Below are positions 35 to 40,199 of a stretch of DNA of 64,000 bases, one piece after another. Every line of letters begins with the position of its first letter. The stretch's first letter is position 1. The translations under genes and the position numbers were made by a program. Source of the stretch: an uncultured Gammaproteobacteria bacterium (GTDB lineage Bacteria; Pseudomonadota; Gammaproteobacteria; Enterobacterales; Psychrobiaceae); assembly GCA_913060565.1 (NCBI GenBank), contig CAJXRU010000003.1:1-64000 (forward strand), in the 5' to 3' direction. Below the pieces are notes generated by a model. The model was not told the origin of the DNA, ran no database searches, and was given only the letters and a program-made list of their open reading frames with translations.

Positions 35-84
35 ATATTAACGCGTTCTTTAGGAGCTACTGAGCCCCCCTTTTTTTTACTCAT
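35..84 (-). CDS. tssB: type VI secretion sheath small subunit TssB/VipA, N-terminal stub
   Basis: Read on the minus strand from ATG at 84, this encodes MSKKKGGSVAPKERVN before the adapter ends it. The SVAPKER(V/I)NI segment near the start is characteristic of the TssB/VipA/ImpB small sheath protein of the type VI secretion contractile tail. A good ribosome site (AGGGAG, 5 nt before the ATG) supports the start. TssB with TssC forms the contractile sheath in the cytoplasm, and tssB is normally followed by tssC and other T6SS genes, which would lie off this contig. Only 16 complete codons are visible, so the assignment rests on a short but distinctive match. Confidence 0.72.
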
Positions 85-365: not shown

Positions 366-387
366 ATATCCCTCTTAAGAGGGATAT
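366..387. promoter_or_regulatory. 22-bp perfect palindrome, probable operator
   Basis: The half-site ATATCCCTCTT is followed directly by its exact reverse complement, with no spacer. There is no T-run on either side, so it is not a typical terminator. It lies about 150 bp upstream of the sigma54-type promoter and about 280 bp from the tssB start. Its position suggests an operator for a dimeric regulator. The regulator is unknown. Confidence 0.5.
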
Positions 388-417
388 AAGGATATTTCTA
401 GTTAACCGTTCATAATG

Positions 418-475
418 TGTACGCAGCATCGTACATTCGGACAATAACGGACACTTTGCAGCGTCCGAGCGGACA
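418..475 (+). promoter_or_regulatory. candidate enhancer sites for the sigma54 activator
   Basis: Three direct CGGACA copies (438-443, 448-453, 470-475) surround a GTCCG inverted copy (463-467). An inverted repeat TGTACG-N6-CGTACA lies at 418-435. Repeated dyads 65-120 bp upstream of a -24/-12 promoter are the usual layout for binding sites of NtrC-type enhancer-binding proteins. The regulator encoded at 5217-6515 is the obvious candidate, but binding is inferred. Confidence 0.5.
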
Positions 476-539
476 TTTCCCAATACAACAATTAAATATT
501 AACACTTTAAAAACAATAACTTAATTAATTATTCATTAT

Positions 540-555
540 TGGCACACAACTCGCA
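540..555 (+). promoter_or_regulatory. sigma54 (-24/-12) promoter of the export operon
   Basis: TGGCAC and TCGCA are spaced so that the invariant GG and GC are exactly 10 nt apart, as in the consensus TGGCACG-N4-TTGCW. The one deviation in the -12 box is TC instead of TT. Transcription would start near 566, leaving a leader of about 28 nt before the adaptor gene. The same operon encodes a sigma54-dependent activator, which supports the call. Confidence 0.72.
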
Positions 556-593
556 AACATAGGGCATACGCATGACAATAAAATGAGAACACC

Positions 594-1862
594 ATGATTA
601 ATGGAACAGATGGACAAGACGAAGTAATCACGACAACTGCAAATGCTAAACCGTGGAAAAAGATTGCAATTAGCACTGTTGTCATTATGGGCTTAGCTTG
701 GGTGAGTCTACCGACACTTAGCCAATGGGTTAACAGCACACCAAGCGTTGAATCTCAGTCAGTGATGAAAGCAACTGCATTTACCGGCACTCTGGTTCGT
801 GATATCGCAGTCAACGGTAAGTTGGTTGCGGCAAACGCGCCAACACTTTATAGCTCAGAAGCAGGACAAGTAACCTTACTTGCTAAGCCAGGTGATATCG
901 TTGCGCAAAACGATATTGTCGCAACAATCTTAAGCCCTGAACTTCAATCTCAAATCAAACAAGCCAATGCCAAGCTCGAGCGATTAAAAATTGATGCGAA
1001 TCGCGGCGAGTTACGTGACAGTGAAGCGCAATTAGATCTTGAGCGCAGCCTAGACACAGCGAAGGTTCGTTTAAACGCAAGTAGCCGTGAGTTAAAACGC
1101 GCTGAAATTTCATTTGATAAGCAAGTTATCAGTGAACTGGATTTAGTGACTAAACGAGATTCGAAATTAGAAAATGAATTGCTATTTAAACATGCTCAAA
1201 AACGTGTTGAGCTGGCTAAGAAACGTCTTGAATTTGAAAATCAAACACGAGACTTCTCGGTAAAAAGCCAACAATTAGTGGTTGATGAGCTGCAACGCCG
1301 CGCAGAATTACTCAGTGTACGTGCGCCTGTTGCAGGTGTCGTTGGTAATTGGTTAGTGCAGAAGAAAGAACGTGTATCTAACACACAAGCCATCATGACG
1401 GTGGTGGATTTAACACAATACGAGGCAGAGCTTAATGTACCTGAATTTTATGCGGACGATTTAGGATTAGGTCTTGATGTTCAAATGAAAATTGCTGGCA
1501 AATCACTCATTGGAAAAGTCATTTCTATATCGCCAGAAGTTAAAAATAGCCAAGTCATGGTACGTGTATCAATTGCACATAATGAAGAGTTAAAACTTCG
1601 TCAGAATCAACGCCTGAATGCACGAATCGAGTTTGAGAAAAAAGATAACGTGTTGATGGTCAAACGTGGTGGTTTCTTATCAACAGATGGCGGCCGCTCT
1701 GCCTATGTCGTCAATGATCAGTTTGCAACTAAACAACCGATTTCGATTGGCTCGCAAAGTGTCGAGTTCGTGGAAATTACCTCCGGTTTAAAGGCGGGTG
1801 ACGAGGTCATTATCTCATCAACGCAAGAATTTGATACACACCCTACTGTTTCACTAGATTAA
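594..1862 (+). CDS. HlyD/MacA-family periplasmic adaptor subunit
   Basis: This 422-residue membrane-fusion protein should link the inner-membrane ABC transporter encoded next to an outer-membrane channel. It has one N-terminal transmembrane segment at about 24-43. A split lipoyl-like domain follows (about 75-112 and 240-265), interrupted by a long charged coiled-coil hairpin (about 113-235), then beta-barrel and membrane-proximal domains. It is first in the operon, directly downstream of the sigma54-type promoter. No TolC-like gene is in the window, so a shared outer-membrane partner is likely. The substrate is unknown; antimicrobial peptides, macrolides or lipids are typical of relatives. 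Confidence 0.88.
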   Translation: MINGTDGQDEVITTTANAKPWKKIAISTVVIMGLAWVSLPTLSQWVNSTPSVESQSVMKATAFTGTLVRDIAVNGKLVAANAPTLYSSEAGQVTLLAKPGDIVAQNDIVATILSPELQSQIKQANAKLERLKIDANRGELRDSEAQLDLERSLDTAKVRLNASSRELKRAEISFDKQVISELDLVTKRDSKLENELLFKHAQKRVELAKKRLEFENQTRDFSVKSQQLVVDELQRRAELLSVRAPVAGVVGNWLVQKKERVSNTQAIMTVVDLTQYEAELNVPEFYADDLGLGLDVQMKIAGKSLIGKVISISPEVKNSQVMVRVSIAHNEELKLRQNQRLNARIEFEKKDNVLMVKRGGFLSTDGGRSAYVVNDQFATKQPISIGSQSVEFVEITSGLKAGDEVIISSTQEFDTHPTVSLD

Positions 1863-1894
1863 TAATTAATAATAACGAATTAGGAAGAAAAATT

Positions 1895-2608
1895 ATGCTT
1901 AACATGAACAACATCAGCCGAATTTATCGCAGCGATACCATTCAAACACATGCACTACGTGATTTTAGTTTAGACGTAAAAGCAGGCGAATTTGTCGCAG
2001 TAACAGGGCCGTCTGGTTCGGGCAAGTCAACATTCCTAAATGTTGCCGGCTTACTCGATGGCTTTGACCAAGGATCGTACGAATTAGACGGTGTTAACAT
2101 TCAGGGGTTAAACGATGACGAATTATCGCGATTACGTAACGAGAAAATTGGCTTTATTTTTCAAAACTATAATCTCATTCCGGACTTTAACCTGTTTGAT
2201 AATATTGATATGCCATTACGTTATCGCGGTTTTAATGCTGCCGAGCGAAAACGCCGTATTGCTAATGCCTTAGAACAAGTCGGATTAGCAAGTCGCGCAA
2301 ACTATTTACCAAGCCAACTATCTGGCGGCCAACAACAACGTGTCGCTATCGCCAGAGCACTCGCAGGTGAGCCAAAAATCCTGCTTGCCGATGAGCCAAC
2401 AGGTAACCTTGATTCACTCATGGCTCGTCAAGTAATGGAGTTGTTACACACTTTAAATGAAGCTGGCAGTACCATTATTATGGTTACTCACGATCCAGAG
2501 CAAGCACGTAGTGTTGGTCGTAATGTACAGGTGATTGATGGACAAATTACTGATCACAGTGTGTACGCGCCTGAAAAAAATAACGCGCCTATCGAAGTTA
2601 ACGCTTAA
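1895..2608 (+). CDS. MacB/LolD-type ABC transporter ATPase
   Basis: This 237-residue ATPase powers the two permeases that follow. Walker A is GPSGSGKST with Lys44, the signature motif is LSGGQQQR, and Walker B is [13 protein letters not shown]. The GNLDS extension after Walker B is typical of the MacB/LolD/FtsE group, which drives mechanotransmission rather than classical translocation. AGGAAG precedes the ATG at a proper distance. The gene lies 32 nt after the adaptor gene and 9 nt before the first permease. Confidence 0.93.
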
Positions 2609-2617
2609 GGAATTATC

Positions 2618-3907
2618 ATGGAAATGTTTAATTATTACCTAAAATTAAGCGTAAGAAATTTAAAGCGAAATCGCTTGTTTTTTATCTTAATGATTTCAAC
2701 ATTGGCCGTTGGTGTTGGTGTTTTTTTAGCGAATATCGCCATTATTAAATCAATGGCTAACGATCCTATTCCTCACAAAAGCGATCGAATATTCAACGTC
2801 ACCTTGAATATTTGGCCTAACGAAAACCCTAGTGCTCGATTACGTGAAACCATGCGTTATGACGATGCAATGCATATCCTTAAAAATGAGATTGCAACAA
2901 ATACACTAGTGCATTATCAATCAAAGGTTTATACACGCGACATCAACTCAGATAATTTGTCTCGCTATCCTGCCGTTGTAAGAGCAACCACACCAGACTT
3001 TTTCCCGATGATGGATGCCCCTTTTGCATTTGGCGGAGCATGGACAGAAGATCATGCTAAACAAGTTGTCATTGGTGATTCATTAAATCAGCAAGTATTT
3101 AATGGCGGTGATAGCGTAGGAAAAACCATTGAAATTGATGGAAAATCTTTTGAAGTTGTTGGGGTATTAAAACCATGGGTTGTTAAACCAATGTTCTATC
3201 ATGTCACTGGCACGCAAGCATTTGATATCAGTGATGACATCTTTGCACCTATCGAGACTGCGATGGATAGTGAATGGGCAATCAACGTTCAAAGCTCTCA
3301 AACAGAGCAAATAGATTCAGTGTCAGATAACCGCGGCAAGAACGGTTTTTTCATCCAAGCATTTGTGCAATTAGATACGCCACATCAAAAATTGGCAATG
3401 CAACAATACTTGGATAACTACTCACAACACAGAAAAGAGCAAGGCGATTTCTTACGCGCTAACGACAACCGTTTATTAGACGTAAATCAATGGCTAGAAC
3501 ATCATAACGTTGTTGACGAGCGCATGCTGGCTTTCGCTATAGCCACGTCTCTATTCTTAGCAGTGTGTATATTTAACGCCAGTAGTTTATTGCTTGCTCG
3601 TTATCACAGTGCACGTTTCGAAACAGGTCTTCGCCGCGCAATAGGTGCTCGTATTAAGGATATTTTTTACCAAGGACTAGTAGAGAGCATGATTATTGGT
3701 TTGTGTTGTGCCGCTTTAGCACTCGTATTTGGCTGGTTGTTCTTAAAGATATCGATGACGTTATTTCCAAAGCTTCAGTACACAAGTGATATCGATGCGT
3801 CACTCATTATATTTGGTGTCATTATTGCCCTTACAACTTCATTCATTAGCATGATTTATCCACTGATTCGTTCATGCCAAACGTCGTTATCAACCACTTT
3901 AAAATAA
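2618..3907 (+). CDS. FtsX/MacB-family ABC permease, first of a pair
   Basis: This 429-residue permease has the MacB layout: one transmembrane helix near the N-terminus (about 20-42), a large periplasmic domain (about 45-300) and three C-terminal helices. The FtsX-type sequence around TGLRRAIGARIKDI lies just after the second helix. Unlike MacB, the ATPase is a separate polypeptide. The next gene encodes a second, diverged permease, so the transporter is probably a heterodimer. The start follows AAGGAATTATC, a sound ribosome site. Confidence 0.88.
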   Translation: MEMFNYYLKLSVRNLKRNRLFFILMISTLAVGVGVFLANIAIIKSMANDPIPHKSDRIFNVTLNIWPNENPSARLRETMRYDDAMHILKNEIATNTLVHYQSKVYTRDINSDNLSRYPAVVRATTPDFFPMMDAPFAFGGAWTEDHAKQVVIGDSLNQQVFNGGDSVGKTIEIDGKSFEVVGVLKPWVVKPMFYHVTGTQAFDISDDIFAPIETAMDSEWAINVQSSQTEQIDSVSDNRGKNGFFIQAFVQLDTPHQKLAMQQYLDNYSQHRKEQGDFLRANDNRLLDVNQWLEHHNVVDERMLAFAIATSLFLAVCIFNASSLLLARYHSARFETGLRRAIGARIKDIFYQGLVESMIIGLCCAALALVFGWLFLKISMTLFPKLQYTSDIDASLIIFGVIIALTTSFISMIYPLIRSCQTSLSTTLK

Positions 3908-3916
3908 GGCCTTACC

Positions 3917-5158
3917 ATGAATATTAAAGCGCTCCTAAAAGCATTACGCCTTAGAAAATTTGCTACGGCACTATTATTACTTCAATTAAGCCTAACGATT
4001 GGTTTAATGGTCAATACAGTTATATTAACCGCCAGTGCCATCGAAAAATTAAAACGACCATTGGGGTTTGACGTTGAACAGCTCATTACCGTTGAGTTAC
4101 TGCCAACTTCAGGCGCTTTTCGTGATACAGACTATTATCGTTCTATTGCCAAGCAAGATATTGAGAAAATTAGTGCATTAGACGGTGTTATTAGCGTTGC
4201 GCATTACAATCAATTGCCGATTCAAAACGGTGGCTGGAATGGCAATGTACAAGCGGCAGATTTACCTGAAGACGCAATTTTACCGCGTGAATTACAATAC
4301 GTTCCAAAGTTCTTTAGTAGCGAAATTGGACTAGAAAACCTTGGCGTCGAGATTATTGAAGGCCGAGCCTTAACAACACTTGATGATTTTACTGATAGAT
4401 TCTATTCAGATAATCGTGGCAGTAGCGACGATACCAATATTATCTTGACAGAATCACTTGCCAAAGCCGTGTTTCCAAACAAATCAGCGATTGGTGAGCT
4501 AACCAATAGCGGCCGTGTTGTTGGCATTGCAAAGGACTTCGTTATTAGCCCTAATCATACTCGCGGGAATTCAAAATACTTCGGCGTATTTTCAAGCTTT
4601 ATGTATTCGCAGTCTGATTTCATTCAAAACTACGTAGTACGTGTAGAGCCAGGCAAGGTAGCACAAGTTCAAGCGCAATTACGTGACACCATTTTATCAG
4701 TACAACCTGAACGCGATATCATCAGAGTACAAAGCATGAGTACAAGGCTTAAAAAGTTTTATAGTCAAGAATCTGGTTTAGCGAGCTTATTTGGTTTACT
4801 TTCGATTCTTATGATCATAGTTACCGTTGTAAGTAGTTTTGCTCATGCACATTTTCACGTGACGCAGCAACGTAAGTTCATCGGCATTCGCCGCGCGCTT
4901 GGCGCCAGAAAAAAGGACATCATGCTGTATGTATTTAGTGAAAATTGGCTATTAAATTTTGGCGCAAGCTTACTAGGCATTGCAACAATGATTGGACTGA
5001 ATGTCGCTTTATCACAAGTAATAACTATCGATAAGCCAGACGTATTATTGTATGCTCTAGCCGTAACTATTGTCTTTGCAGCAGGTACCTTAGCCACTTG
5101 GTTACCGGCTTATAAAACAACAAAAATTTCGCCAGTTATCGCAACTCGCACTCTATAA
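3917..5158 (+). CDS. FtsX/MacB-family ABC permease, second of a pair
   Basis: This 413-residue protein has the same architecture as its neighbour: an N-terminal helix at about 17-38, a periplasmic domain, then three helices from about 290. The FtsX motif KFIGIRRALGARKKDI sits after the second helix. Overall similarity to the first permease is low outside this motif and the helix pattern, which fits a heterodimeric transporter. It starts 9 nt after the previous stop with AAGG upstream. A GC-rich hairpin follows, then the regulatory genes. Confidence 0.88.
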   Translation: MNIKALLKALRLRKFATALLLLQLSLTIGLMVNTVILTASAIEKLKRPLGFDVEQLITVELLPTSGAFRDTDYYRSIAKQDIEKISALDGVISVAHYNQLPIQNGGWNGNVQAADLPEDAILPRELQYVPKFFSSEIGLENLGVEIIEGRALTTLDDFTDRFYSDNRGSSDDTNIILTESLAKAVFPNKSAIGELTNSGRVVGIAKDFVISPNHTRGNSKYFGVFSSFMYSQSDFIQNYVVRVEPGKVAQVQAQLRDTILSVQPERDIIRVQSMSTRLKKFYSQESGLASLFGLLSILMIIVTVVSSFAHAHFHVTQQRKFIGIRRALGARKKDIMLYVFSENWLLNFGASLLGIATMIGLNVALSQVITIDKPDVLLYALAVTIVFAAGTLATWLPAYKTTKISPVIATRTL

Positions 5159-5169
5159 ATAATAATAAA

Positions 5170-5193
5170 TGTCGCCACTTCGCAGTGGCGACA
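5170..5193 (+). terminator. hairpin between transporter and regulator genes
   Basis: Perfect 10-bp arms, TGTCGCCACT and its complement, enclose a TCGC loop. No U-tract follows, so it is more likely an mRNA-stabilising or partial-termination hairpin that sets transporter versus regulator expression than a full terminator. Confidence 0.5.
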
Positions 5194-5216
5194 AATAAGA
5201 ACAGCAGGAATTGTTA

Positions 5217-6515
5217 ATGAAGCGGATCCTAGTGGTTGATGACAACCATGATATTTTAGACGCTCTAGATTTATTACTTAGCCTACATGATTATCAAGTA
5301 GTAACCGCCAGTACTGTAAAAGACGCTGTTATCACAGCAACTAATCAACAGATAGACCTAATCATTCAAGACATGAATTTTAGTCAAGGCACCACATCCG
5401 GCGCTGAAGGGAAATCTCTTTTTTATCAATTTAAAGATATAACACCCGAGACGCCAATTATTGTTATCACGGCGTGGAGCCAATTAGAAACAGCTATTGA
5501 ACTCGTAAAATCAGGCGCTGCCGACTACTTACCTAAACCGTGGAACGACACAAAATTACTGCAAACAATTAGTGAAAATGTTCAACAGAGTACGCCAGTA
5601 AAGTCACAAAAAGCATCATCAGCAACTAACCAACTGATTATTGAAAGTGCACCGATGAAGCAACTCATCGCCATGGCGGGTAAAGTTGCAGCGAGTGATA
5701 TCAGCGTACTCATTACCGGTGCCAATGGCAGTGGTAAAGAGCGTATTGCTGATTATATTCATCAGAATTCCCCGCGCAGTGCTCAACCCTTTATCAAGGT
5801 CAATATGGGAGCGCTCGCCAGTGAATTAATGGAAGCTGAGTTATTTGGCGCCGAAAAAGGTGCATACACTGGTGCTACATCGATGCGCCAAGGTCGTTTT
5901 GAAGCTGCTGATGGTGGCACATTATTCCTAGATGAAATCGGAAATTTACCATTGGCAGGACAAATGAAATTGCTGCGGGTACTGCAAACAGGCCAATTTG
6001 AACGCGTTGGCTCAAGTGAAACTATCAGTGTTGATGTTCGTGTTGTCAGTGCAACAAATAGTGACCTGCTACAAGCCATCAAAGATAATCTATTTCGCGA
6101 AGATTTATACTATCGGCTCAATGTTGTTGAGCTGAATTTACCGCCCCTCAATCAGCGTCAAGATGACATACTTCCCCTCACTCATCACTTTATAGGCAGT
6201 GATTATCAACTAAGTGAAGAAGTAAAGCAGTTACTCCCTAGACAGCCGTGGCATGGCAATGTACGTGAATTAGAAAATCACTGTAAACGCGCCGTGGTAC
6301 TGTGTAATGACCACTTGTTACTCAGTGAACACTTTATGTTAGACAGTCGTGTCTCGTCACCCGTAAAAATAGACGATGATAAAACGCTATTAAAATCGGT
6401 ATTAGATAAACATCAATGGGTGATTGCGCGTGCAGCCAATGAATTAGGCATGAGTCGACAAGCATTGTATCGCCGCATCGAAAAGCATCAAATCAGCCAA
6501 AACTCGGAAAGCTAA
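5217..6515 (+). CDS. sigma54-dependent response regulator (NtrC family)
   Basis: This 432-residue activator has a receiver domain (1-125: acidic pair D8-D9, phospho-acceptor D52, conserved lysine in LPKPW), an AAA+ domain with Walker A GANGSGKE and GAYTGA in place of the usual GAFTGA sigma54-contact loop, and a C-terminal Fis-type helix-turn-helix ending in SRQALYRRIEKH. ATG at 5217 is chosen because AGGAA lies 6 nt upstream; an in-frame TTG at 5211 is less likely. The kinase gene follows after one base. It most likely activates the sigma54-type promoter in front of the adaptor gene. Confidence 0.93.
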   Translation: MKRILVVDDNHDILDALDLLLSLHDYQVVTASTVKDAVITATNQQIDLIIQDMNFSQGTTSGAEGKSLFYQFKDITPETPIIVITAWSQLETAIELVKSGAADYLPKPWNDTKLLQTISENVQQSTPVKSQKASSATNQLIIESAPMKQLIAMAGKVAASDISVLITGANGSGKERIADYIHQNSPRSAQPFIKVNMGALASELMEAELFGAEKGAYTGATSMRQGRFEAADGGTLFLDEIGNLPLAGQMKLLRVLQTGQFERVGSSETISVDVRVVSATNSDLLQAIKDNLFREDLYYRLNVVELNLPPLNQRQDDILPLTHHFIGSDYQLSEEVKQLLPRQPWHGNVRELENHCKRAVVLCNDHLLLSEHFMLDSRVSSPVKIDDDKTLLKSVLDKHQWVIARAANELGMSRQALYRRIEKHQISQNSES

Positions 6516-6516
6516 T

Positions 6517-7797
6517 ATGTGGTTAATTATTGCATTGGGCGTACTCCACATTGGTGTCATGACAAGTGTTTACTTCTTTGGCGTCCAATATCCTATAACG
6601 ACGATGAGCTTTTTTCTGTGTTCACTCATAGCCACTTTTGAGCTACTTAAGCGACAATTAAAACGTCATCAAATTATTCTGCAAAGTCTCGATCATGGAT
6701 TACAAAGCTTACGAGACAATGATTTTTCAGTGAGCCTGAACCATCAAAAAGAAAAAAGCTATAACCCACTCATTGAGGCATTTAATCAAACAAGTGCCAA
6801 TTTAAGAGATGAGCGTCAACGACTTTACCAACGTGAAATGATGTTAGATAAAGTGCTTAATGCATCCCCAATGGTCACCATCTTGGTGGATCACCGCGAT
6901 ACCATTGTGTTCACGAATAACAGTGCTCAACAAGCATTTGAGTTAAACGGCTCTATTGTCGGACGGCAATGGACAGGCTTGGTTAATTCTCTTGCACCGG
7001 AGTTTCAACATGCGTTAAATCATCACGGTGAAACGATTTTTACATTAACCGACAGCCAAGGCGCACAACAAGCGTGGCACGTCACTAACTCTAGCGTCAC
7101 CATCCACCAAGCGCGCCATAAACTCTTTTTACTTAAAACGATTACCCAAGAGTTATCGAAACAAGAAGTCGCGACATGGAAAAAAGTCATCAGCGTCATC
7201 AGCCATGAACTCAATAATTCTATCGCGCCGATTAGTTCGATGTGTCACAGCGGAGAGCTGCTAGCTAAAAACCTTGATGAACCGCGCTTAAACCGCGTCT
7301 TTAATACCATTAGTGGCCGTGTGAATCACCTCAATGATTTCATTAAGGGGTATGCCACGTTAACTAAGGTTAAGCTCCCCCACAAGCAACCAATTATGTG
7401 GCCAGCGTTGGTTGAGCAGTTACAAACACTTTATCCGTTTGAACTGCTCAGTGCCTTGCCAAGTACCTCAATTGATGGTGATCTCGCTCAACTTGAACAG
7501 GTATTTATTAACGTACTCAAAAACGCTCATGAAGCCGATGCAAGTGGAAAAATCAGCATGAATTTTGATACGACAGCTCATGGCCTTGAAATAACCATTA
7601 ATGATAATGGCAGCGGAATGTCTGCTGAAGTGATTCAAAATGCGCTACTGCCCTTTTATTCAACAAAACATTCAGGCACGGGTTTAGGGTTGGCACTTTG
7701 CCGTGAAATTATTGAAGCCCATGAAGGAAAGTTAATATTTAATAATCGTGATCAAGGCGGTTTAAGTGTACTAATTATCCTACCACTCATTGACTGA
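6517..7797 (+). CDS. PAS-domain sensor histidine kinase (NtrY-like)
   Basis: This 426-residue kinase has two closely spaced N-terminal transmembrane helices (about 1-21 and 24-43) with almost no periplasmic loop. It probably senses something in the membrane or cytoplasm. A linker and PAS domain (about 110-205) lead to the HisKA box with phospho-acceptor His230 in SHELNNS. The ATPase domain has the N box NVLKNAHEA, DNGSGM and GTGLGLALC. It starts one base after the regulator stop, so it is co-translated with its partner. Confidence 0.92.
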   Translation: MWLIIALGVLHIGVMTSVYFFGVQYPITTMSFFLCSLIATFELLKRQLKRHQIILQSLDHGLQSLRDNDFSVSLNHQKEKSYNPLIEAFNQTSANLRDERQRLYQREMMLDKVLNASPMVTILVDHRDTIVFTNNSAQQAFELNGSIVGRQWTGLVNSLAPEFQHALNHHGETIFTLTDSQGAQQAWHVTNSSVTIHQARHKLFLLKTITQELSKQEVATWKKVISVISHELNNSIAPISSMCHSGELLAKNLDEPRLNRVFNTISGRVNHLNDFIKGYATLTKVKLPHKQPIMWPALVEQLQTLYPFELLSALPSTSIDGDLAQLEQVFINVLKNAHEADASGKISMNFDTTAHGLEITINDNGSGMSAEVIQNALLPFYSTKHSGTGLGLALCREIIEAHEGKLIFNNRDQGGLSVLIILPLID

Positions 7798-36351: not shown

Positions 36352-36987
36352 TTATAAGTAGTTTTTAAAATACTTAACAATCTCTTTTGCAATAATCGGC
36401 TGTGCTTTTTCATTTGGGTGAATTTGATCCGCTTGCATTAGCTCAGGCTTCACGGCAACTGATTCAATAAAAAATGGCATTAAGGAGATGTCTTCTTTTG
36501 CGGCAAGCTTAGGATATAAGCCAGTAAACATCGATGTATAACGTTTACCTAGGTTTGGCGGTATTTGAATTTGTGTAACTATGACCTTGATTCCTTTATC
36601 TTTACCCATCTTTACCATCGCGCTTAAATTGTTACGAATTGTATTGATCGGGTAGCCACGAAGACCGTCATTGCCACCAAGTTCAATCCATAATACGTCA
36701 ACCTTATTCTTCTCTAACAGCCTAGCCAGCCTGGCTTTCCCGCCACCAGTTGTTTCACCGCTCGCACTAAAATTTAATAATCTAAAATCGGGATAAGTTT
36801 TTATCAATTCTTTTTCAGCAATTGAAGCCCATCCTTTGGATGCTTGCATTCCGTAGCTAGCGCTGAGACTATCCCCTAACAATAAAACATTAGTAGCGTG
36901 GACTGGCACCACGGTAGCAACCCCAAGAAAAACGCATAGGTAGGCACGGCGAATGAGTGAAGAACAAGTTTCAAGCGATATCATCAT
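36352..36987 (-). CDS. tesA: TesA-type multifunctional acyl-CoA thioesterase / lysophospholipase
   Basis: This 211-residue secreted GDSL hydrolase has a signal peptide (ending VPVHA, about 31) and the four SGNH blocks: GDSLSASYG with the catalytic Ser, SGETTGG, GGNDGLRG and the C-terminal DQIHPN with the catalytic Asp/His. ATG at 36987 (or the adjacent 36984) is the only sensible start and gives an E. coli-like leader. It overlaps the divergent ybbA gene by 35 bp. TesA hydrolyses thioesters and lysophospholipids in the periplasm. Confidence 0.93.
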   Translation of the reverse strand: MMISLETCSSLIRRAYLCVFLGVATVVPVHATNVLLLGDSLSASYGMQASKGWASIAEKELIKTYPDFRLLNFSASGETTGGGKARLARLLEKNKVDVLWIELGGNDGLRGYPINTIRNNLSAMVKMGKDKGIKVIVTQIQIPPNLGKRYTSMFTGLYPKLAAKEDISLMPFFIESVAVKPELMQADQIHPNEKAQPIIAKEIVKYFKNYL

Positions 36988-37672
36988 AGTAAAAAATCTT
37001 ATTAAACAAGTGGCAGTAAATAACTCAACATTAGAGATACTTAAGTCTATCTCATTAAATGTCAAGCAAGGTCAATCAATTGCCATCGTTGGCGCATCTG
37101 GCTCAGGCAAATCAACCTTACTTGGATTGCTCGCTGGATTAGATAGTTCAACCAGTGGCGAAATCTGGTTAGATGATGCCCCACTTCACGAACTAAATGA
37201 AGAGCAACGTACCGAACTTCGTGCTAAAAAAGTTGGCTTTATTTTCCAATCATTTTTATTACTGCCTGCACTGACAGCATTAGAAAACGTGATGTTGCCA
37301 GCACAACTCGCCGGATTTGAGAATGCAGAACAAAAAGCAAAAGAGTTACTTGATAAGGTTGGATTAAGCCATCGTGACGATCATTACCCTAACCAACTAT
37401 CGGGTGGTGAACAGCAACGTGTTGCTATTGCCCGCGCCTTTATTTGCCAACCTAAAATTTTGTTTGCTGACGAACCAACGGGCAACTTAGATGGCGCTAA
37501 TGGCAAACGTATTGAAGAACTTCTATTTGAATTAAATCAACAGCTCAATACTACACTGGTGTTAGTAACCCATGATCCAAAACTGGCTCAAAATTGCCAG
37601 CGTATTATCACCATGGACGATGGTCAAATCAGTGAAGATGTTAAAGAAGAGGAGTTGTCGGATGTGGTTTAA
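36953..37672 (+). CDS. ybbA: ABC transporter ATPase YbbA
   Basis: This 239-residue MacB/LolD-type ATPase has Walker [10 protein letters not shown], signature LSGGEQQR, and [12 protein letters not shown]. It pairs with the large permease that follows, whose start overlaps its stop by 11 nt. The divergent neighbour tesA is conserved from E. coli. ATG at 36953 follows an AGG-rich stretch; no later start would keep the first strand IIIVKNL, so the 5' ends of the two genes overlap. Confidence 0.92.
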
Positions 37673-40199
37673 ACCTGCAACCGCGCTCCTTAAACAACAA
37701 ATTAAGCGCGGTGAACTCACCATATTCATCTTAGCCATTGCTTTGGCAGTCACCTCGGTGTTCTCACTAAGCGGCTTTGGTGAACGATTAAATCAAGCCT
37801 TGGTTGCTAAAGGTAGTAACTTTTTAGCAGCAGATCGCGTGTTATCATCTGCTCATGCCATTGACGACAGTGTGCTAGCAAAAGCCAATGATTATCAAGT
37901 TAAGGCGGCCGAATACTTAAGCTTTAATTCAATGGTATTCCATGGCGATGAAATGCTCCTTGCTTTTACCAAAGCGGTAAAAGGGCCTTATCCCCTACGT
38001 GGTGAACTAAAAATTAGCGACAAAGCACTGACAAACGATCCATTGGATACCCAAGGCGTTGTCAAATACGGCCCGCCACCGCAAGGTGAAGTGTGGGTAT
38101 CACCGGAGTTATTAGTACGCTTTGACGCTGTCATTGGTGATGATGTTGAGGTGGGCGACACTAACCTAAAAGTTACAGGCATTGTGACGCAAGAGCCTGA
38201 TGGTTCGTTCTCAATCTTTAACTCCAGCCCGACAATTTTCATCAACGATTTAGACGTTGCTGCAACCAACATCGTGCAGCCAGGTAGCCGCGTTTATTAC
38301 AACTATCTTTACAGTGGCGATGATGATGCTCTAAGTGATTTTTATCAGGCCATAAAACCCGATTTAAAAACTAACCAAAATTGGCAAGACATCAAGGGAG
38401 AGCAGTCGCCATTAGCTAACTCTCTCAAACGTGCTAATCAATTTTTATTACTCTCTAGTTTGCTTGGCATTATTTTGGCTGCGACGGCAATCTCTGTCAC
38501 CGCATCCCGATTTAGTCAACATCAACTAGACACCGTTGCGCTGTTAAAAACGTTAGGAACCAACGATAGCACTATTCGTAAAATTTTCGTTTTCCAGTTA
38601 ACTACTCTAGCCCTTATTGGTATGTCACTTGGCTTAATTGCAGGCTACGCGTTGCAAGAAGGCGCACTTGGCCTCGTACAGCATTATTTACCGCAATCGC
38701 TACCGAAAGATTTACCTGGTTTAGGTTTTAAACCATTATTGATTGCTGTCAGTACCGGCGCAATTTGTGCAGCATTGTTTTCACTAACGCCAATGTTACG
38801 CTTGTTTAGCGTCCCTGTGATGCGTGTTATAAAACGTGATATGGCGAGTGCGCCATTTGCCCTTTGGAAAAATGGATTAGTGTTTGGCGGTGCCATTTTC
38901 GCGTTGCTACTCACCTACTCTCAGGACATTGTGTTATCACTTATTACGCTAACGATAGCGGCTATTATCGCGTTAGTACTCAGCGCAATGGCATGGATAA
39001 TTATTCGAATGGCTCGCGGCAAACAATTTAGTGCAGCTAGCCCATTTAAGCTAGCAATGGCATCGCTTTATCAACGAGCCAATCAAGCCAGTATGCAAAT
39101 TGCCAGCATCGCAACCGCCATCATGTTGATGTTGATTGTCTTATTGCTTCGCAATGAGTTAATTGATGAATGGCAAAACCAAATTCCTGAAGGCACCGCC
39201 AATCACTTTCTTGGCAATGTCACCCCAGATCAAGTTGATCAAATTGACAGCTTAATGAAAAAGTATGACGTTGAAACCAGCGATCTCTACCCAATCATTC
39301 GTGGTCGAGTATCAATGATTAACGACGATAAAGTGGGTGGTTATGATAGTGAAGGTAATGCTGAAGATGAGCGTAAGCGTTCTGGGCGTCGTGGTTTTGG
39401 CCGTGAACTCAGCTTAACTTGGCGCGACGCTAAGCCGGATGGTAATCCAATTACACAGGGTCAGTGGTGGGATGAATCTGACACGACATTACAAGTGTCA
39501 GTAGAGTCAGATGCCGCCGAACGTCTTGAAATTAAAATTGGTGACACCTTAACCACCTTAGTTGGCGAAGAAGTCGTCGTCGCAACAGTAACTAGTTTCC
39601 GTGATGTGCATTGGCGCTCAATGCGTCCTAATTTTATGCTTATTTTCAATCGCGCCGCACTAGGCGATATGCCATCTACTTATATTTCATCGTTTTACGT
39701 TGATAAAGATCAGCATCCTTTATTAAGGGATTTATTGCGGGATTACCCGACAATTTCGCTGATAAAGATTGATCGCTTGATTAAACAATTACGTGAAATT
39801 ATCGAACAAGTATCACTGGCCTTGTCATACATTATGTTCTTAGTAGTGTGTGCGGCAATCTTAGTATTGTTGGTGCAAATCCAAGCAAGCTACCAACAAC
39901 GACATCAAGATCTTGTTATCTTACGTACCCTAGGCGCAGGTAAAAAACTACTGCAGCGTTCAATTGCTATTGAATTTCTGATTTCAGGGGCATTAGCTGG
40001 ATTCATCGCCGCATTAACAACGGAGCTAGCGTTATGGCTAATTCAAACCTTTGTTATTGAAATGACTTGGAAACCGCATCCAACATTATGGCTACTAGCC
40101 ACCGCTGTTGGCAGCGTCTTTGTGGCGTTAATCGGTACACGAGCGTGTAAACTGCTAACCAAACTGCCGCCAAATGAGTTAATTCGAAATCTGTCATAG
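37662..40199 (+). CDS. ybbP: ABC permease YbbP
   Basis: This 845-residue permease has two FtsX units: helices and cytoplasmic contact segments at about 18-40 and 275-420, then a second set after about 700 (ASYQQRHQDLVILRTLGAGKKLLQ). Large periplasmic domains lie between. It works with YbbA; export of lipids or another substrate is proposed for this type but not known. ATG at 37662 is preferred because GGAG precedes it and the upstream extension matches nothing. Overlap with ybbA suggests translational coupling. Confidence 0.9.
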   Translation: MWFKPATALLKQQIKRGELTIFILAIALAVTSVFSLSGFGERLNQALVAKGSNFLAADRVLSSAHAIDDSVLAKANDYQVKAAEYLSFNSMVFHGDEMLLAFTKAVKGPYPLRGELKISDKALTNDPLDTQGVVKYGPPPQGEVWVSPELLVRFDAVIGDDVEVGDTNLKVTGIVTQEPDGSFSIFNSSPTIFINDLDVAATNIVQPGSRVYYNYLYSGDDDALSDFYQAIKPDLKTNQNWQDIKGEQSPLANSLKRANQFLLLSSLLGIILAATAISVTASRFSQHQLDTVALLKTLGTNDSTIRKIFVFQLTTLALIGMSLGLIAGYALQEGALGLVQHYLPQSLPKDLPGLGFKPLLIAVSTGAICAALFSLTPMLRLFSVPVMRVIKRDMASAPFALWKNGLVFGGAIFALLLTYSQDIVLSLITLTIAAIIALVLSAMAWIIIRMARGKQFSAASPFKLAMASLYQRANQASMQIASIATAIMLMLIVLLLRNELIDEWQNQIPEGTANHFLGNVTPDQVDQIDSLMKKYDVETSDLYPIIRGRVSMINDDKVGGYDSEGNAEDERKRSGRRGFGRELSLTWRDAKPDGNPITQGQWWDESDTTLQVSVESDAAERLEIKIGDTLTTLVGEEVVVATVTSFRDVHWRSMRPNFMLIFNRAALGDMPSTYISSFYVDKDQHPLLRDLLRDYPTISLIKIDRLIKQLREIIEQVSLALSYIMFLVVCAAILVLLVQIQASYQQRHQDLVILRTLGAGKKLLQRSIAIEFLISGALAGFIAALTTELALWLIQTFVIEMTWKPHPTLWLLATAVGSVFVALIGTRACKLLTKLPPNELIRNLS

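Follow-up and report, generated by a model that had tools for sequence, protein, structure and literature searches.

A predicted sigma54-dependent control region upstream of an ABC export operon encoding its own NtrC-type regulator and kinase

The window, a gammaproteobacterial stretch of 64,000 nucleotides that forms the start of contig G000:C3, carries between positions 366 and 593 what is very likely the region controlling an export module that is self-contained and positively autoregulated; this claim concerns the regulatory mechanism only and not the exported substrate. The six genes that follow (594-7797) encode an adaptor, an ATPase, two FtsX/MacB-fold permeases, an NtrC-type response regulator and a histidine kinase. 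We propose that the membrane-embedded kinase would phosphorylate the regulator, which would bind CGGACA/TGTCCG half-sites approximately 90-150 bp upstream of the transcription start and, once bound, would drive RNA polymerase-sigma54 at 539-555. The predicted transcript would cover the adaptor, the ATPase, both permeases and the regulator-kinase pair itself; because this pair would be transcribed from its own target promoter, the response to a signal would be steep, self-amplifying and confined to the operon. The signal may be an envelope-active substrate, perhaps sensed via the transporter, and the exporter would probably use a TolC-type channel, encoded at another locus, to remove a peptide or amphiphile that acts on the envelope.

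The export operon and its upstream region

The features referred to below are as follows.
1-34, no strand: sequencing adapter (Nextera read-2 transposase sequence), not genomic, from direct reading
35-84, minus strand: 5′ end of tssB (T6SS sheath small subunit), a neighbour outside the system, from its translation MSKKKGGSVAPKERVN
366-387, no strand: ATATCCCTCTTAAGAGGGATAT, a perfect palindrome of 22 bp lying between the export operon and tssB and found nowhere else in the genome
418-435, no strand: TGTACG-N6-CGTACA dyad, from the sequence, with similar elements in some relatives
438-475, no strand: candidate enhancer (UAS) with half-site TGTCCG/CGGACA, from its repeats, conservation in relatives and uniqueness in the genome
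539-555, plus strand: predicted sigma54 -24/-12 promoter TTGGCACACAACTCGCA, from direct reading, shuffles and a similar conserved position in relatives
594-1862, plus strand: periplasmic adaptor, HlyD/MacA-type membrane fusion protein (PF13437 and TIGR01730 over cut-off)
1895-2608, plus strand: ABC ATPase of the MacB/LolD class, 237 aa (PF00005)
2618-3907, plus strand: permease A, FtsX plus MacB periplasmic core domain, 429 aa (domains and AlphaFold model)
3917-5158, plus strand: permease B, FtsX plus MacB periplasmic core domain, 413 aa (domain matches)
5217-6515, plus strand: NtrC-type response regulator (PF00072 receiver, PF00158 sigma54 AAA+, PF02954 Fis-type HTH)
6517-7797, plus strand: histidine kinase (membrane hairpin lacking a periplasmic domain, HELNNS phospho-acceptor box, HATPase)

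The last two genes of the operon bear out the original prediction that it encodes its own sigma54 activator and kinase. Indeed, the regulator combines a receiver, a sigma54 AAA+ domain with a GAFTGA-type loop and an HTH, and alignment indicates that it keeps this loop (as GAYTGA) together with the receiver aspartates and has SRQALYRR in the HTH. The transporter had been called MacAB-like, a description that stands for the fold and the adaptor but not for the chain organization. Like MacA-MacB-TolC, the operon has a HlyD/MacA-type adaptor and permeases with a MacB periplasmic core, and the AlphaFold model of permease A (pLDDT 81.5) has MacB 5gko as its top PDB match (E 3.7e-20), with LolC/E, YtrF, HrtB, YbbP and BceB as more distant matches to the predicted fold. 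Unlike single-chain MacB, however, the ATPase here is a separate, unfused chain accompanied by two different permeases, and the operon has its own sigma54 regulation. The adaptor scored far under the cut-off of the MacA equivalog model, and the best NCBIfam models for the ATPase (DarD, MacB and LolD) were each under cut-off. No outer-membrane channel gene lies within the six-gene operon. A known anti-phage system was considered and rejected, PADLOC having returned generic ATPase matches only. A separate observation concerns the cytosolic N-tail of the adaptor, where a motif M[IK]xDTSxQD precedes the membrane helix in approximately 90 loci, in operons both with and without a regulator; here it reads MINGTDGQDE (594-623).

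Direct reading of TTGGCACACAACTCGCA gives TTGGCAC-N6-CGC, with GG at 541-542, GC at 553-554 and ten nucleotides between them, in a TGGCAY-N5-TTGCW context; the -24/-12 element with exact GG-N10-GC spacing that had been proposed is thus present. It is the single match to TTGGCAY-N6-YGCA in the 64 kb, shares the top score in the window, and outscores 100 Markov-shuffled versions of the upstream 330 bp. A match of this type nevertheless occurs in 28 of 100 shuffled windows, and therefore the sigma54 motif by itself is weak. From its position transcription is expected to start at approximately 566, and the genome encodes RpoN; a further sigma70 promoter may also serve the operon. Elsewhere in the window a sigma54-like match with an equal score (TGGCACCACGGTAGCA, 36904-36919) lies approximately 35 bp before ORF 36953, which is followed by another large FtsX/MacB permease (37572-40199); this match may be due to chance.

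Upstream of the promoter, exact copies of CGGACA begin at 438, 448 and 470, and an inverted CGTCCG at 462-467 yields the arrangement CGTCCG-AG-CGGACA, in agreement with the repeats that had been noted there. While single CGGACA words are fewer in the window than expected, clusters of copies within 30 nt of each other number two against an expectation of 0.07, and at least two such clusters were found in none of 100 shuffles. The dyad at 418-435 is possibly an outer regulator site; TGTACG/CGTACA-like elements also adjoin CGGACA repeats in L003/L041 and L007/L045. NtrC-type control typically involves repeated dyad sites ahead of the target promoter, as found here, with binding itself predicted. 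The combination of enhancer and promoter occurs once in the whole 4.35 Mb genome, and across the genus the pattern finds the export operon plus two stray matches. A multi-gene regulon was therefore rejected, since the genome holds no second enhancer-promoter pair, and the circuit looks single-target and self-amplifying.

Enhancer and promoter among related operons

To compare the intergenic region with that of related genomes, as had been suggested, we assembled 93 loci from 395 genomes of the same order together with named Psychrosphaera, Paraglaciecola, Alteromonas and Colwellia loci; 76 of these operons include the regulator gene and 17 do not. Both elements are conserved and track the regulator gene. 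At least two enhancer half-sites were found in 74/76 operons with the regulator versus 0/17 lacking it, and a significant sigma54 match, defined as one beating shuffles at 0.05 by an ad hoc score, in 61/76 versus 0/17. This comparison strongly supports the earlier claim of sigma54 control by the operon's own regulator. Several of the 15 promoters that were non-significant by this ad hoc score have GT replacing GC at -12. Similarly, a 6-mer count made with no preset motif ranked CGGACA first, repeated in 68 of the 76 upstream regions and thus well above its level in coding controls; it was not among the top 6-mers of coding controls or of regulator-less operons, in which the top words were exclusively A/T-rich. 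The Fisher p of 1e-16 for enhancer versus regulator is not a true probability, and such values overstate the case because the loci share ancestry, although the pattern itself is plain. On the adaptor tree, regulator presence or absence switched at least two times.

The same sites and promoter recur in 11 of 12 loci elsewhere in the class with adaptor identities of 32-40%, the exception being L165, which has no regulator in the stretch that was read. Gene order (adaptor, ATPase, permease A, permease B, regulator, kinase) is preserved amid unrelated neighbours, and therefore the conserved unit is the module itself. Its distribution is patchy, with relatives of the operon in 80/395 genomes of the order. 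L160 and L164, which belong to those 11 loci, were considered as examples of an enhancer lacking a regulator, but in each the regulator lies further downstream, past extra permease pairs. L160+L175 (G591:C8:696231-718238) carries six tandem permease A-B pairs and L164+L176 (G479:C1:831679-847751) four, set in each case between a single ATPase and the regulator and kinase, and both have the same enhancer and sigma54 promoter. In L057 (G009:C323 around 14478) a decayed copy, with an adaptor fragment containing stops, retains the half-sites and has lost the promoter GG, and in L139 the enhancer is retained with a regulator that has no recognisable recognition helix and whose C-terminus looks truncated or shifted.

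A paralogous operon in the same genome

A second such operon is present in the same genome (L054, G000:C35), with an adaptor 38% identical to that of the first and an enhancer built of TGTTCG/CGAACA. Its regulator has SRSALYRR where that of the 594-7797 operon has SRQALYRR, a replacement of Gln by Ser in the recognition helix. Across all loci, regulators with Gln are associated with CGGACA in 66 of 67 cases and with repeated CGAACA in none, whereas those with Ser are associated with CGAACA in 6 of 7 and with repeated CGGACA in none. On the tree the regulators with Ser form one clade and the Gln/Ser split has a single origin, and repeated, independent emergence of the Ser/CGAACA pair was accordingly rejected; the split therefore amounts to one evolutionary event rather than independent evidence of a recognition code. 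As judged from these sequences, the two paralogous operons probably form two insulated circuits within one genome.

Alternative explanations, sensing and relation to known systems

It might be argued that promoter and repeats arose by chance and that the operon is read from a sigma70 promoter. A sigma54 match alone would indeed be expected in 28% of shuffled windows, but the conservation of the sites and their co-occurrence with the regulator gene make this explanation exceedingly improbable. Only marginally more credible is the idea that the module protects the cell from, or serves, the neighbouring T6SS. A T6SS gene does adjoin the operon, as had been noted, with tssB starting divergently approximately 500 bp away. 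This gene is cut by the contig end, where bases 1-34 match the Nextera adapter; its remainder ends contig C58, which closes in the TssB frame inside a T6SS-type cluster, and the two systems most likely adjoin in this strain. However, in none of 23 related loci with flanking sequence did protein matching turn up a T6SS homologue beside the operon, and the best sigma54 score towards tssB in the shared intergenic region was 10.5, not a good match. The proposed link to T6SS killing or protection is therefore unsupported.

A more serious alternative, although still an unlikely one, is that the module exports a molecule made by the cell, such as a lipoprotein, a lipid or a secreted peptide, and serves normal envelope building rather than defence. 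LolCDE-type folds match too, a 2011 study tied sigma54 generally to the cell exterior and to envelope building (PMC3162934), and the four or six permease pairs of some relatives look as if meant for several substrates. Against this, the distribution among genomes of the order is patchy, no linked biosynthesis gene was recognised, and the top fold match is the efflux-type MacB. An inducible defence against envelope stress or peptides, as originally suggested, is a plausible role for the module.

How the kinase would be stimulated is suggested by its topology. In nearly all of 72 operons hydropathy places an N-terminal membrane hairpin of approximately 45-60 residues, too short a span by this measure to accommodate a periplasmic domain. 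Kinases of the Bce type likewise have two TM helices and lack an extracellular domain. Lacking a domain in the periplasm, the kinase may receive its signal through the transporter. One possibility, which we hold tentatively and by analogy, is Bce-like flux sensing, in which the working transporter would be the receptor that sets kinase activity and induction would follow transport demand. The hairpin-only kinases, the shared operon of transporter and kinase in all 72 cases, and the weaker match of the permease fold to BceB and BceABS complexes are consistent with such sensing. On the other hand, kinase-transporter contact is hypothetical, the cytoplasmic region before the H box could sense another signal, and the regulator is of a type unlike BceR. 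Flux sensing would extend the autoregulated export module proposed here, and the two can hold together. More speculative, and rather doubtful at present, is the suggestion that such operons represent a widespread Gram-negative counterpart of Bce, a sigma54 two-component switch whose sensor would be the exporter itself, with separate circuits in one cell insulated by a change of one residue in the recognition helix and of one base in the half-site, and with permease pairs multiplied (up to six) to widen the substrate range under one switch.

The module shares features with several known systems and differs from each. As in BceAB-BceRS of Firmicutes, an FtsX-type ABC transporter lies beside a hairpin kinase lacking an extracellular sensor domain, and the response regulator is predicted to control the transporter. 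Unlike that system, the present one is Gram-negative, includes an adaptor, uses a sigma54 activator instead of an OmpR-type regulator, and has two FtsX/MacB-core permeases in place of the single BceB permease of approximately 10 TM helices with a large extracellular domain; BceB structural matches rank well below MacB, and transporter sensing is hypothetical here. The adaptor and ATPase distantly resemble those of the darobactin exporter DarBCD (NF038010, NF038007), but the scores against cut-off were 79.7/450 bits for DarC, 260.8/375 for DarD and 20.4/700 for DarB, and the permeases are split here. No darobactin-type peptide gene was recognised. ZraSR, GlrKR and NtrBC are NtrC-family systems whose regulators have the receiver-AAA+-Fis architecture and upstream dyad half-sites. 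The regulator described here resembles them in both respects but has its own half-site, CGGACA/TGTCCG, and apparently a single operon as target.

A 2025 survey reports an enrichment of sigma54 promoters ahead of genes for COG0577 permeases, both in Gammaproteobacteria and in Bacteroidia, and presents it as the first evidence for an association of this kind (PMC12316311). These "antimicrobial peptide" permeases are of the same class as those described here and likewise have predicted sigma54 promoters in Gammaproteobacteria; the survey is a COG enrichment, and the passages found in it name no enhancer, cognate regulator or kinase for such operons. In the openly readable full-text literature, which leaves most subscription papers outside, we found no description of the enhancer, the regulator-kinase pair or the hairpin kinases, and in the literature searched the circuit, the enhancer and the kinase topology appear to be undescribed. 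A class of export operon previously tied to sigma54 by statistics only is now given an exact enhancer (CGGACA/TGTCCG), a cognate regulator, a promoter and natural controls in the form of regulator-less operons. The presence of both paralogous circuits in a single genome makes it simple to test how similar sigma54 activators avoid cross-talk, and the hairpin kinases provide a Gram-negative test case for transporter-coupled sensing.
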